Source: an uncultured bacterium
GTDB taxonomy: Bacteria; Patescibacteriota; Microgenomatia; UBA1400; UBA12108
Direction: 5' to 3'
Length of the DNA: 37,673 nucleotides
Assembly (NCBI GenBank): GCA_903945195.1
Contig: CAJAUT010000016.1
Span: 1-37,673 of the forward strand
The notes beneath the pieces were generated by a model. The model did not search any database, was not told the origin of the DNA, and saw only the letters and a list, made by a program, of their open reading frames with translations. How positions within the stretch are numbered: position 1 is the stretch's first letter; every line of letters starts with the position of its first letter. This document shows positions 13,000 through 31,965 of the stretch, one piece after another. The translations under genes and the position numbers were made by a program.

Positions 13000-15519
13000 T
13001 CATCCCACACTCCCAATCATTTCCATCCTAACTAATCGATTAAGTTCCACCGCATACTCCATAGGTAGCTCTTGTATCACCGGCTCTATAAACCCTCGTA
13101 TTATCATCGCTTCGGCCTCCTTTGCCGTCATCCCCCTACTCATTAGATACATTATCTGCTCCTCTCCTATCCTCGATACATATGCCTCATGCTCTATAGT
13201 TGCCTGCCCATTTAACACTTGGTTATCAGGATAAGTATCAGACCTAGATTCTGGATCCATTATTAGCGCATCACACACCACCTTGGACCTTGCTCCTTTT
13301 GCCTTTGGTCCTATCATCACCCTCCCTCTATAACTAGATCTTCCACCTGATCGACTGATAGATTTACTTGTGATCTTGCTAGTTGTGTTTGCCGCCAGGT
13401 GGATCATTTTGGCCCCTGCATCTTGCTGTTGCCCTTCTCCAGCCACCGCTATAGACAACATCTCCCCGTGTGCCCTCTCTCCTTTGAGAATACAGCAAGG
13501 ATATTTCATCGTAAGTCTAGATCCCAAATTACAGTCTATCCACTCCATAGCCCCGTCCTGCTCTACTACTGCGCGTTTAGTCACCAAATTGTAAACAGTC
13601 TTGTACCAATTTTGGACCGTCGTATATCTCACTTTAGCTTTTTCTTTTACTACCACTTCTACCACAGCCGCGTGCAAACTGGCGCTACTATATGCAGGAG
13701 CAGAGCAGTTATGAACAGCAACTCCAGAAGCAATATATGATTCATCAATTTCAACTCCAAAATTATAAACGTCTATATCTACAACCTCTTTAAAATTTGT
13801 AGATTTTATAGGCACATATACATACTCACCATCATATCCATACATACTGGAGCGATTTTTATTATTCAGCGATCGTAAAATAGGAATTTTAAAAATATCA
13901 CCGAGTTTAACCATCCATTCACCTGTCACTCCAACCGTATACATTCTTCTTCTATTCTCTTTAGATCTATCTCTACTATTTATAAATGCTGGAATCCCGA
14001 TATGACGCAATACACGAATCATTTGTCTAGCCAAACACTCTGAAGTTGTATTTCCTCGAAACGCTTCTTTATAGCCAGATGGGTGTTTTTTAGTATAATA
14101 ATTTCCATCACCCCTAAACCAGCCAATAACAATCTCTTTAAGTTTGTCTTTATCTTCACCAAACATCCACTCTAGTATTTTTTTATTCTCATTGTGAGTT
14201 CCAAAAAACTCAAATATTCTACATAGCTCTACGGAGTTAAATACAACCGACGCGCCATGATTCTTTTTGTGAGCGCTTTCGTGAGAACTAGAAAATCCAA
14301 ACACTTCTTTTACCAGCATTTTTACGTCTTCGATATATTCTCTTTCATTTTCAGAAAAAGAAAAGTTAAGATATGAACCAGAACTAATACTCCCTTCAGC
14401 TAAATAATATCCAACCAATCTATAAAATGATTCATTTGTTAAAACTAATATCGGTTTATCTACATATCCCAGTTTTTTTCCTTTCCATTCTTTAATAACA
14501 AACTCTCGCTCTAACTGCTCATCTGGATTTCTGTCTAACGGTATTGCCAAATAATCTCCCTTAACTAATTTTTCAGGCTTCAACCACTCATGTTTCCAAA
14601 TCTTGTTTCTATCGTTTTTTGATCTTCTCTTTACAGCCAAAAATGGATGTTCTTCTGTAACTAATACTGATCTGGTAGAATCACCATAGTATTTAATTTC
14701 AAATAACTTACCAGTATATTTGCGCTTCTGTAAATTTCTAATTTTTCGATAAATTCCTTTGTGACTCAGCAATAAGTCATCTATCGTAATGTTCTCTATC
14801 TTTTTTTCACCACCATTTGTTAAAACATTCACACCGGCTGGAAAACATCCTTCGACATAATGCACGCTAGACTCTTCCTCGGCCACGATTAAAGTCCTCT
14901 CAAACTGTCCAGCGTTCTCTGCATTAATACGGAAATATGCTTGCAGTGGCAAATCTACTTTTACATTTTTAGGGATATATACAAAAGAACCACCACTCCA
15001 CACTGCAGTATTTAGTGCAGCTAGTTTATTGTCGCCGTACGGCACAATTTTCCCAAAATATTCTTTTACAATTTCTGGATACTGTTTAAGCCCCGCGTCC
15101 ATGGAAAGAAATATCACACCCTTTTTAGCAAGTACTTTTTGCAGAGAATGATATATAACTTCACTATCATATTGCGATCCCACTCCCGCAAGCATCTTTT
15201 TTTCAGCTTCCGGGACCCCAATAGTGTCAAATACTTTTTTTATATTGTCAGGTACGTCCTCCCAAGTCCTAAACTGTTTATCTACCGGCTTTAAATAGTA
15301 ATGGATATCCTCCCAATTTATTTGTGTCAGGTCTGCTCCCCAACTAGGTATCGCCATTCCATAATATTGTTTTAGTGCTACAAGTCGCGTGTCCAGCATC
15401 CACTGGGGCTCATTTTTTTGTTTAGATATTTCTCTTACTAGCTCCTCTGATAGTCCTTTTTTTGCCTTAAAACTATACCCTTCTGTTCCTGTGTTAAATC
15501 CTAGTTTGTTGTCATACAT
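13000..15519 (-). CDS. sufB: SufB with an in-frame LAGLIDADG intein
   Basis: An 839-aa precursor. Exteins (residues 1-224 and 605-839, 459 aa together) make a normal-length SufB, the core of the SufBCD Fe-S assembly complex: YYLKPVDKQFRTWEDVP, SGGSFVYIPKNVKV, then SAPAYSSASLHAAVVE and EEQIMYLMSRGMTAKEAEAM. The intein is residues 225-604 and splits VHYVEG/CSAP, a conserved SufB site. Its features are Cys225, TEEHPFL (block B), two LAGLIDADG-like motifs (about 368-376 and 465-473), YIASGVAVHN and the downstream Cys605. All residues needed for splicing are present, so active SufB should be released. The gene overlaps the sufC end by 19 nt. Confidence 0.95.
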   Translation of the reverse strand: MYDNKLGFNTGTEGYSFKAKKGLSEELVREISKQKNEPQWMLDTRLVALKQYYGMAIPSWGADLTQINWEDIHYYLKPVDKQFRTWEDVPDNIKKVFDTIGVPEAEKKMLAGVGSQYDSEVIYHSLQKVLAKKGVIFLSMDAGLKQYPEIVKEYFGKIVPYGDNKLAALNTAVWSGGSFVYIPKNVKVDLPLQAYFRINAENAGQFERTLIVAEEESSVHYVEGCFPAGVNVLTNGGEKKIENITIDDLLLSHKGIYRKIRNLQKRKYTGKLFEIKYYGDSTRSVLVTEEHPFLAVKRRSKNDRNKIWKHEWLKPEKLVKGDYLAIPLDRNPDEQLEREFVIKEWKGKKLGYVDKPILVLTNESFYRLVGYYLAEGSISSGSYLNFSFSENEREYIEDVKMLVKEVFGFSSSHESAHKKNHGASVVFNSVELCRIFEFFGTHNENKKILEWMFGEDKDKLKEIVIGWFRGDGNYYTKKHPSGYKEAFRGNTTSECLARQMIRVLRHIGIPAFINSRDRSKENRRRMYTVGVTGEWMVKLGDIFKIPILRSLNNKNRSSMYGYDGEYVYVPIKSTNFKEVVDIDVYNFGVEIDESYIASGVAVHNCSAPAYSSASLHAAVVEVVVKEKAKVRYTTVQNWYKTVYNLVTKRAVVEQDGAMEWIDCNLGSRLTMKYPCCILKGERAHGEMLSIAVAGEGQQQDAGAKMIHLAANTTSKITSKSISRSGGRSSYRGRVMIGPKAKGARSKVVCDALIMDPESRSDTYPDNQVLNGQATIEHEAYVSRIGEEQIMYLMSRGMTAKEAEAMIIRGFIEPVIQELPMEYAVELNRLVRMEMIGSVG
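13708..14847 (-). mobile_element. SufB intein (380 aa) with LAGLIDADG homing endonuclease domain
   Basis: This protein intron starts with Cys (nt 14845-14847) and ends His-Asn (13708-13713), followed by Cys at 13705-13707. The splicing blocks look intact: CFPAGVNVLTNGG, LVTEEHPFLAV, VDIDVYNFGVEI and YIASGVAVHN. LVGYYLAEG and IVIGWFRGDG are the two LAGLIDADG helices with acidic residues (Glu and Asp), so the nuclease may be active. Confidence 0.92.
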
Positions 15520-22991: not shown

Positions 22992-23972
22992 ATGACTAGA
23001 GTTGTGTTCAAAAAAGGTGATTTAGATAAATACCTAGCTCAAATCATCAAAGATCAAGGATGTTCCTTTCTACAACTTTCCAAATTGCTCAATGTTGAAC
23101 GTCACACACTCGCCAGTTGGCGACGAGGAGAATGCTTACCAAGTCTCGAAAAACTACAATTTTTATCTAGCTATACCCAAGCCCCACTTCCACGCGTTTT
23201 AGAGTCCAAATCAGATACCTGGGGATCAGTCAAAGCTGGGAATATTCGTCAACAAAAATATGGTTGTACCTTGTCTATAAAAGATAGAGTCAAAGGTGGT
23301 CACAACTCACAGGTCAATCGCCATGATAACCCTGATTATTACCGCAAATTGGGATGTCCTATCCCGAGAGATTTTACCTTTCCCGATCACCATGATTACC
23401 ACCTCGCCGAATTTATTGGAATATTGCTTGGTGACGGAGGAATTCAAAAGGTCCAACTCAGCATCACTCTAAATACAATCGCCGATAGCAACTACATAAA
23501 ATATGTTGGAAATTTAATTTATGATCTTTTCCAATATTCGCCAACTATTTCATCCAGATATCCTGTCAAGGCTACTGTTTTACTTATATCAGGTGTAAAT
23601 TTTATTTCAGAACTGCTTAAAATTGGAATGAAGGTTGGAGACAAGGTCAAACAGCAAGTTGACGTGCCAGACTGGATTAAATCTGAACCAGAACTCTCTC
23701 GTTGGTGCCTTAGAGGAATGATGGATACTGATGGGGGCGTTTTCCGGAATACCTACACAATTAATGGGAAGTCATATTCTTATCTTAAAATATGCTTTTC
23801 TAATCTTTCACAACCATTAAGACATTTTACCCATCAAGTACTTTCCGCTTACGGATTAAGTCCTTCTTATGTTGGCAATAATCAAGTGTGGGTTGCTTCG
23901 GAGAAAAATGTTTACAAATATATGAGAATAATTGGGAGTTCAAACGATAGACTACTTAGAAAGTTTCGATGA
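22992..23972 (+). CDS. Free-standing HTH + LAGLIDADG homing-endonuclease-like protein
   Basis: A 326-aa protein. Residues about 10-65 form an XRE-like helix-turn-helix (LSKLLNVERHTLASWRRGEC). A linker with basic and aromatic residues follows. Two LAGLIDADG-type helices are AEFIGILLGDGGI and WCLRGMMDTDGG, each ending in an acidic residue needed for catalysis. It has no splicing motifs, so it is not an intein. Such proteins may cleave DNA and spread themselves, or act as domesticated regulators. It has a strong promoter and ends 17 nt before a tRNA-Ser gene whose -10 begins directly after its stop codon, suggesting insertion at a tRNA locus. Confidence 0.8.
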   Translation: MTRVVFKKGDLDKYLAQIIKDQGCSFLQLSKLLNVERHTLASWRRGECLPSLEKLQFLSSYTQAPLPRVLESKSDTWGSVKAGNIRQQKYGCTLSIKDRVKGGHNSQVNRHDNPDYYRKLGCPIPRDFTFPDHHDYHLAEFIGILLGDGGIQKVQLSITLNTIADSNYIKYVGNLIYDLFQYSPTISSRYPVKATVLLISGVNFISELLKIGMKVGDKVKQQVDVPDWIKSEPELSRWCLRGMMDTDGGVFRNTYTINGKSYSYLKICFSNLSQPLRHFTHQVLSAYGLSPSYVGNNQVWVASEKNVYKYMRIIGSSNDRLLRKFR

Positions 23973-23989: not shown

Positions 23990-24077
23990 GGGAGGTTGCC
24001 ACAGCGGTCACACTGGAATGGTTTACTAAACCATCGTCCGAGTAATCGGGCCGTGGGTTCGAATCCCACACCTCCCG
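23990..24077 (+). tRNA. tRNA-Ser, apparent anticodon ACT
   Basis: An 88-nt class II tRNA. Acceptor GGGAGGT/ACCTCCC, D-stem CCA/TGG, anticodon stem ATGGT/ACCAT with loop TTACTAA, long variable arm CCGA-GTAA-TCGG, T-arm GTGGG-TTCGAAT-CCCAC, discriminator G. The long variable arm and G73 fit serine. Positions 34-36 (24025-24027) read ACT, decoding AGU; bacteria normally use GCT. CCA is not encoded. Confidence 0.85.
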
Positions 24078-24086
24078 CTTCAATGT

Positions 24087-24092
24087 TATAAT
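24087..24092 (+). promoter_or_regulatory. -10 element of the second tRNA-Ser gene
   Basis: TATAAT 11 nt before the second tRNA, the same spacing as for the first, so each tRNA seems to have its own promoter. Confidence 0.5.
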
Positions 24093-24103
24093 TTATTCTG
24101 CCT

Positions 24104-24190
24104 GGAGGCGTCGCTTAGCTGGCCCATAGCGGAGGATTGCTAATCCTCTGTGCAGGAATGCACGCGTGAGTTCGAATCTCACCGCCTCCG
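24104..24190 (+). tRNA. tRNA-Ser(GCT)
   Basis: An 87-nt class II tRNA. Acceptor GGAGGCG/CGCCTCC, anticodon stem GAGGA/TCCTC with loop TTGCTAA (GCT at 24139-24141), variable arm GTGCA-GGAA-TGCAC, T-arm GTGAG-TTCGAAT-CTCAC, discriminator G. It reads AGC and AGU serine codons. CCA is not encoded. Confidence 0.93.
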
Positions 24191-24249
24191 CAGTTTATAA
24201 ATAAACTATAATGACTCCAGAGAAACTTATAAAAGAATTATAAATTACC

Positions 24250-30322: not shown

Positions 30323-30758
30323 GGGGACGTCTTGCTTTGACGTATACCAGCTCTTTAACATCTGCATACCGACTTTGACGAGAGAAGTCGTAAAACAGCG
30401 TCAAAAAAAATCTGTCAATACATTTGCACAGACAGTAAAATCAGCGATGAACAAAATCGGCGCCACAATCGCCAGCTATGTTCCTTCGTTTGAATTTGCT
30501 CCAGCTTCCGTTCAAGCTTTTGCTTAATCGGCGCTAGCATTTATATCTAACTCGCTCATGGGGAAGATATAGGTGGAAATACACATGAGCCGTAACCCCG
30601 CTTTGATCAGGCTGGGCCATACAAACGATCACCCTCGGATTACTTTTGGCCTGATAAATGCCTAAGTGATAAGAGGTTAAAACATAAATTTATCTATGTA
30701 TGTAGATGGTGTTATAGACGGTACGCGGACGAGGGCTCATTGCCCTCCGTCTCCACCA
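30323..30758 (+). ncRNA. ssrA: tmRNA (ssrA) with a long tag reading frame
   Basis: A 436-nt tmRNA that frees stalled ribosomes with SmpB. Acceptor GGGGACG/CGTCTCC with a G-U at the third pair, as AlaRS needs, then ACCA at the 3' end. TTTGACG near the 5' end is typical. PK1: CGACTT/AAGTCG (30370-30375/30385-30390) with TGACG (30376-30380) pairing CGTCA (30399-30403). The tag most likely resumes at AAT 30417, 13 nt after PK1, and ends at TAA 30525-30527: 36 codons starting NTFAQTVKSA and ending ASVQAFA. The usual tag is about 8-15 residues. A GGGG/CCCC pseudoknot follows. The T-loop (CTCATTG) deviates from TTCRANY. smpB lies 0.8 kb downstream. Confidence 0.92.
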
Positions 30759-30814: not shown

Positions 30815-31531
30815 ATGGAAACAAACCAAATCCCTGTCGAACAACCAATAGTCACAACCCCAGCCCCCATCGTCCCAGAAACAGTCTCCCAAGCATATAT
30901 TCCCGTCACCCAAAAATCCTCCAATCTTCCAATAATTATTCTCTCTATATTCTTAGTTATCTCACTGTCTGCTATAGCTTATCTATATACCCAAATTCAA
31001 TCCCTCAAAACCCAAGCTCCAACTCCAGTAGCCCAAGTTACACCTTCCCCTGTCGTCACCCCAGTAGCTACCTCTACCCCAGCAGCAGCATCCGCTGCTG
31101 ATCCTACAGCAACCTGGACAACATACACCAACTCGACGTTTGGATTTAGTTTCCAACTACCCAAAGAGGTTAGCTACAAATACGATGATCTAGACAAATA
31201 CGTTGAAACAGGGATTAACAATGCCCAGCTTCTTGTCCAAAACTTCGATGGCATGAAGGCTGGGGGAGATGGTGACTCCGATTTTCAAATAATGATTCTT
31301 ATTGAAAACAGTAATGGTTTGAATATGGAAGATATCTCATCACCAAAAAAGACAACTATCAGCAATACATCTGCAACTCAAGGCAGCACTACGATCAAGT
31401 GGGCCAAATCTCTTGTAACAATATTTGATGTCCAGCCACACAAAATTGCCGTCGTCCTATCATCCAAGCAATCAAATCAGAACATAGTTCTCTATAAACA
31501 GATCCTCTCCACCTTCAAATTCACCAATTAA
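30815..31531 (+). CDS. Membrane-anchored extracytoplasmic protein, function unknown
   Basis: A 238-aa protein: a Pro-rich cytoplasmic N-terminus (ETNQIPVEQPIV), one TM helix (about 39-58), a Thr/Pro/Ala-rich linker (TPVAQVTPSPVVTPV), then a domain beginning TWTTYTNSTFGFSFQLPKE, a pattern common in PsbP-like or other lipoprotein-type beta domains of small-genome bacteria. It lacks the cysteines of the 24285 protein but shares its promoter and N-terminal NQIP motif, so the two may be diverged paralogs or built on the same anchor module. It ends 4 nt into the convergent smpB gene. No function can be assigned. Confidence 0.7.
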   Translation: METNQIPVEQPIVTTPAPIVPETVSQAYIPVTQKSSNLPIIILSIFLVISLSAIAYLYTQIQSLKTQAPTPVAQVTPSPVVTPVATSTPAAASAADPTATWTTYTNSTFGFSFQLPKEVSYKYDDLDKYVETGINNAQLLVQNFDGMKAGGDGDSDFQIMILIENSNGLNMEDISSPKKTTISNTSATQGSTTIKWAKSLVTIFDVQPHKIAVVLSSKQSNQNIVLYKQILSTFKFTN

Positions 31532-31965
31532 ACCGTATTCTTCACGGCCTTGGCCAGGTCGCGTTTAATATTACGAGCTTTTAGGTCCGCTCTCTTCTCC
31601 CACTCTCTCTTTCCCTTCCCCACTCCTATCTCACACTTTGCCCATCTACCCTTAAAAAACAATTTAAGCGGGATAAGAGTTAGATTTTTTCCTTCTATCT
31701 GTTTATGGATTTTAAGCATCTCACTTTGTTTTAGCAACAGTTTTCTACTTCTCTTGGAATCATATTCTTTGCCAGAGTAGTGACTGTATTTAGGTATATC
31801 TGCCCCAATCAAAAATAGTTCCCCGTTTATCATCTTTGCAAACCCTTCCCTCAAACTCCCACGCTCTTCCCGCAAACTCTTCACCTCAGCACCCGTGAGC
31901 ATCACCCCCGCCACGTAAGTGTCTGAGATACTATACTCACTCCTCGCCCATTTATTTACTATCAT
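31528..31965 (-). CDS. smpB: SmpB, tmRNA-binding protein
   Basis: A 145-aa OB-fold partner of tmRNA. NKWARSEYSISDTYVAGVML starts the fold, TGAEVKSLREERGSLREGF is the signature, LIGADIPKYSHY and LTLIPLKLFFKGRWAKCEIG follow, and the basic C-terminal tail ends KRADLKARNIKRDLAKAVKN, which enters the mRNA channel of the stalled ribosome. Length is normal. TAGAAT (31972-31977) ends 6 nt before the ATG. tmRNA lies 0.8 kb away on the opposite strand, so the trans-translation genes are clustered. Confidence 0.95.
   Translation of the reverse strand: MIVNKWARSEYSISDTYVAGVMLTGAEVKSLREERGSLREGFAKMINGELFLIGADIPKYSHYSGKEYDSKRSRKLLLKQSEMLKIHKQIEGKNLTLIPLKLFFKGRWAKCEIGVGKGKREWEKRADLKARNIKRDLAKAVKNTV

Follow-up and report, generated by a model that had tools for sequence, protein, structure and literature searches.

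The locus studied here raises the question of whether its tmRNA gene really specifies an unusually long proteolysis tag and, if it does, what reads that tag and why it is long. The gene lies in a window of 37,673 nucleotides, the whole stretch of DNA analysed, which corresponds to contig C16 in an assembly of 1.05 Mb with a completeness of 97.6%. It is a genuine tmRNA of a Microgenomates (Patescibacteria/CPR) genome. We propose, with a probability of about 0.7, that it is a canonical one-piece tmRNA with an extended tag common to its whole order, and that this tag most likely serves as a degron for Lon with FtsH as a backup. The original prediction of a tmRNA with an unambiguous pseudoknot 1 (PK1) is borne out by the Rfam model RF00023, which matches exactly 30323-30758 on the forward strand over its full length (model positions 1-374, 83.3 bits, E 4.7e-31, gathering score 47), and by the gene for the partner protein SmpB, which sits 0.8 kb downstream on the opposite strand. 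PK1 is confirmed as described, with CGACTT (30370-30375) pairing with AAGTCG (30385-30390) and TGACG (30376-30380) with CGTCA (30399-30403). The alanine identity pair G3-U70 is present (G 30325, T 30752) and is kept in 70 of the 71 tmRNAs of the order comparison; the 3' CCA is encoded at 30756-30758, and the stop codon of the tag (TAA, 30525-30527) precedes helix 5, which begins at 30538. The features are collected in Table 1.

Table 1. Features of the tmRNA locus, in window positions.
Feature	Position	Strand	Basis
tmRNA gene ssrA, one-piece, CCA encoded	30323..30758	+	Rfam RF00023, full model
Pseudoknot 1 (PK1)	30370..30403	+	Direct sequence reading; Rfam alignment
Hairpin that may enclose the resume codon, TCTGT 30411-30415 with ACAGA 30428-30432	30411..30432	+	Stem test; fold
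Resume codon GTC, A at -4 (30410)	30414..30416	+	Unsupervised motif, 71 tmRNAs; ARAGORN on relatives
Tag reading frame, 37 codons and TAA, VNTFAQTVKSAMNKIGATIASYVPSFEFAPASVQAFA	30414..30527	+	Sequence, comparison, motif
Helix 5 hairpin, 3' of the stop codon	30538..30575	+	Fold; Rfam alignment
T arm; loop CTCATTG remodelled, lacking A58, pairing of C54 with G60 possible	30731..30747	+	Arm comparison
smpB (tmRNA partner protein)	31528..31965	-	Pfam PF01668, 154.6 bits

Elsewhere in the window, an 839-residue open reading frame on the reverse strand (13000-15519) reads by eye like SufB with an intein, the extra block running from CFPAGVNVLTNGG to GVAVHNC. Another on the forward strand (22992-23972), also judged by eye, resembles a LAGLIDADG-type protein and stands directly before two tRNA-Ser genes (23990-24191), a pair in which the unusual anticodon ACT lies beside GCT.

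The resume codon was located by comparison of 71 tmRNAs (that of the window, 69 from the same order and one from the same class) using a motif search that started at random positions and had no sequence rule built in. All 71 aligned at a context of the form A-x-x-T|G preceded by an A-rich stretch, with A at position -4 in 98%, T at -1 in 97% and G at +1 in 98%; in the window this context reads ATCT|GTC and sets the resume codon at GTC 30414, 10 nt past PK1. ARAGORN calls the equivalent start codon in most of the relatives that it can detect (VNEKTD..., VNKEDK..., AKNIFS...), L008 being different. The adenine at -4 is the equivalent of A86 of E. coli, which stacks on Tyr55 of SmpB and contributes to frame setting (PMC8363625). 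The frame of about 36 residues that was originally placed at AAT 30417 is indeed open for 36 codons up to TAA 30525; its proposed resume codon is replaced by GTC, which lies one codon upstream in the same frame, and the tag becomes one of 37 residues (codons 30414-30524) in addition to the alanine borne by the tmRNA. The stem that may cover the resume codon belongs to a type enriched over codon shuffles, the observed mean being reached by none of 100 shuffle sets in either the order or the phylum. It was rejected as a novelty, being the MLD hairpin already known from E. coli, where it may protect the resume codon (PMC8363625).

Taken alone, the frame of the window, which stays open in 14% of base shuffles, would prove little, and the decisive point is its openness across relatives. 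All 71 tmRNAs have an uninterrupted resume frame of 25-42 codons, whereas in the two remaining frames a length of 25 codons is attained in 31% and 14% of them. Tag lengths of 25, 26, 28 and 32 residues occur in a single genus together with its close relatives, always between an initial VNKED and a final AFA; insertions and deletions therefore preserve the frame. Pairwise differences among six close relatives with tags of equal length fall 43/19/79 on the three codon positions, an excess at the third. Neither a resume codon far nearer the stop nor an upstream in-frame stop occurs among the tmRNAs compared. A resume codon elsewhere with a short functional tag (for example NLSIHLHRQ in frame +1, or a start near the stop) is very improbable, for although such frames are present in the window sequence, the conserved context, the spacing of 10 nt after PK1, the ARAGORN calls in relatives and an openness in 71 of 71 that is confined to the GTC frame all argue against it.

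Measured against bacteria at large the tag is long; within its order it is ordinary. Tags of the order have 25-42 residues with a median of 31, and 8 of the 71 tmRNAs reach at least 37; the tags of 110 Patescibacteria outside the order have 9-32 residues with a median of 22, and the commonest length in a tmRNA database of 97,179 sequences is 10 (PMC11915505). The predicted unusual length thus stands against bacteria generally and falls away within the order, where every tmRNA examined has a tag in this range. A profile built from the tags of Patescibacteria outside the order gives the consensus core AANLASKVKAAFANQPAFAPAAALA, shared by the order; the median score with this profile is 10.3 bits for tags of the order and 1.5 for shuffled tags, and the tag of the window scores 13.5. 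The long tag is therefore an elongated variant of one found throughout the phylum, a tag type that opens with [AV]-[NK]-x-F, continues through a basic amphipathic central part and FAPA, and closes with hydrophobic residues ending in A. Literature searches found no description of tmRNA tags from Patescibacteria or Microgenomates; the database of 97,179 sequences very likely includes such genes.

The proteases available to read this tag form an unusual set, as had been predicted. Family searches, on which the absences rest, found no match in the window's genome to the ClpX zinc finger (PF06689), ClpP (PF00574) or the Hsp100 C-terminal domain (PF10431), and thus no ClpX, ClpP or Hsp100 ATPase, and found both Lon and FtsH. 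The Lon of this genome (on its contig C20, 301.5 bits) has the active-site motif GPSAG, and the translated FtsH carries HEAGH. Across a set of 89 genomes of the order, the ClpX zinc finger is above the cut-off in none, ClpP matches occur in 13 relatives and are weak or partial, the best of them containing an internal stop, and the Hsp100 C-terminal domain is found in 48, that of the window not among them. Lon is present in 84 of the 89, a few of these solely by weak matches to Lon-like domains. The pattern is reversed in 192 genomes of the phylum, most of which have ClpP and fewer than 40 a full-strength match to Lon. Most of the 192 have ClpP and lack both a full Lon and a ClpX with the usual zinc finger, the latter being above the cut-off in just 5. 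A genome of the same family as the window's has a lone ClpP-like stretch (L080, G003:C20:164707-165222, 64.9 bits) with an internal stop codon, which may be the remnant of a clpP gene or a more distantly related sequence.

In a genome without ClpP and Clp ATPases, degradation by Lon is the most likely fate of tagged proteins. FtsH could be the main reader instead, acting at the membrane, with the long basic and hydrophobic part of the tag bringing tagged proteins to the membrane face. FtsH is found in 86 of the 89 genomes, including that of the window, and the helical moment of the window's tag over 11 residues is high in comparison with shuffles (z 2.0) at a net charge of +1; on the other side, the mean amphipathic z of the order is just 0.9 and no stretch of the tag reaches the hydrophobicity of a membrane helix, and we regard FtsH as an unlikely main reader. 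The suggestion that a long tag might serve membrane targeting through a hydrophobic segment is likewise unsupported, the most hydrophobic stretch of 19 residues averaging just 0.98 on the Kyte-Doolittle scale.

Reading by Lon would not by itself account for the length of the tag. The explanation that the tag is long because ClpXP was lost looked compelling within the order and was rejected on the phylum sample, in which genomes with Lon and without ClpP outside the order have median tag lengths of 20 in the same class and 17 in other classes, whereas the median is 22 in genomes with ClpP and without Lon; the difference in length between genomes with Lon and the rest is not significant in this sample (p 0.14). 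The proposal that a long tag is matched to an unusual protease set thus fails across the phylum as a cause of length. Tag length is a lineage trait, because genomes outside the order that have Lon and lack ClpP have no long tags. We give serious but lesser weight to the view that only the last 5-10 residues matter and that the extra length is near-neutral drift, the ribosome simply reading on. Consistent with drift, tag length does not follow protease content and varies over 25-42 residues in the order and over 25-32 in one genus, with conservation mainly at the ends; yet none of the 71 tags has fewer than 25 residues, although short ones are easily reached, and the interior retains a recognisable core and the third-position excess.

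The C-terminus behaves differently from the length. Of the tags of the order, 82% have an aromatic residue among their last four positions; the share is 76% in other genomes with Lon and without ClpP, compared with 25% in genomes having both and 35% in genomes lacking Lon. Counted by families outside the order, the figures are 8 of 10 versus 24 of 57 (Fisher p 0.03), an association chosen post hoc, after the tags had been seen, among families that are partly non-independent. The phylum sample therefore separates two traits, a length that does not follow the protease set and an aromatic C-terminus that, judging from the tag sequences, seems to follow it. This lead agrees with the Mollicutes, in which Lon reads long tags ending in NYAFA (PMC9382460), and with the frequent occurrence of Leu, Ala and Phe among the residues of Lon cleavage sites (PMC11986505).

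With Lon as the main reader, the system would work as follows. By analogy with the known mechanism, the tmRNA would be charged with alanine by virtue of G3-U70 and, helped by SmpB, enter stalled ribosomes; translation would resume at GTC 30414, the tail A-VNTFAQTVKSAMNKIGATIASYVPSFEFAPASVQAFA would be added, and release would occur at TAA 30525. The tagged proteins would then be degraded mainly by Lon, which would read the aromatic and alanine-containing C-terminus, and FtsH would act as the backup degrader. The extra length may offer Lon a longer unstructured hydrophobic handle.

A more unusual feature of this tmRNA than its long tag is the remodelled T-loop. In place of the usual loop, with T54 and A58, the tmRNA of the window has CTCATTG; its four relatives in the family (L037-L040) have CTCACTG. 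A58 is missing in 47 of the 68 order-set tmRNAs with a clear T arm and present in 101 of 109 loops outside the order. Among the loops without A58, a pair between positions 54 and 60 is possible in 39 of 47 (G-C 14, T-A 13, C-G 6, T-G 6), a number expected to be 20.9 in shuffles and reached in none of 5000, compared with just 1 of the 21 order-set loops that have A58. Pairing of 54 with 60 gives a T stem of 6 bp and a loop of 5 nt. In 35 distinct arms the pair is changed on both sides in 16 rows and unpaired in 7, and a quick tmRNA tree, computed with the T arm and the tag left out, requires 21 or more changes of pair type. C56 is invariant, as is T55 among the arms lacking A58; contacts with the D side may therefore persist. 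The usual T-loop is common and not required by the RF00023 model, and the remodelled loop marks a variant and not an exclusion, since membership rests on the full-model match. ARAGORN missed the tmRNA of the window and all four family relatives tried, and the odd T-loop is probably behind these misses. A search of the literature found no description of a remodelled T-loop with a 54-60 pair.

It is conceivable, though we hold it only tentatively, that the order has remodelled its tmRNA twice, once in its T-loop, cut down to five bases above a covarying 54-60 pair, and once in its tag, lengthened to a degron of 25-42 residues read by Lon only, the latter an independent parallel to the Mollicutes. 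How tags evolve once ClpXP is lost is already known from the Mollicutes. Another group, very diverse and unrelated to them, that has Lon and FtsH and no ClpXP would permit a real comparative test of what Lon recognises, and the long tags of Patescibacteria could also find use as orthogonal degrons. If the remodelled T-loop is confirmed, it shows to what extent the tRNA-like domain of a tmRNA may diverge from tRNA and still serve EF-Tu, alanyl-tRNA synthetase and SmpB; it is probably also the reason that some such genes are overlooked by a standard gene finder.

Among known systems, the locus resembles the canonical tmRNA (RF00023) in G3-U70, CCA, PK1, the A at -4, the resume hairpin, a tag frame that ends in TAA before helix 5 and a nearby smpB; it differs in the 37 residues of its tag as against the commonest 10 (PMC11915505) and in a T-loop without A58 and with a possible 54-60 pair. 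With the tmRNAs of other Patescibacteria it has the tag core and the resume context in common, whereas their tags are shorter (9-32 residues, median 22) and most of these bacteria have ClpP and no true Lon. The Mollicutes (Mycoplasma and Mesoplasma) share with it the absence of ClpXP, the retention of Lon, a long tag (that of Mesoplasma florum also exceeds the E. coli tag in length; PMC9382460) and a hydrophobic A-F-A end, and their NYAFA end is found exactly in some members of the order (L009, L032). The tag of the window ends in VQAFA, however, and not NYAFA, so that A-F-A alone is shared with the Mollicutes; lineage and tag sequence are unrelated, and reading by Lon, known there, is proposed here from genome content and tag sequence. 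Though not filed as a member of that type, the tag of the window may work like the Lon-read tags of Mollicutes.
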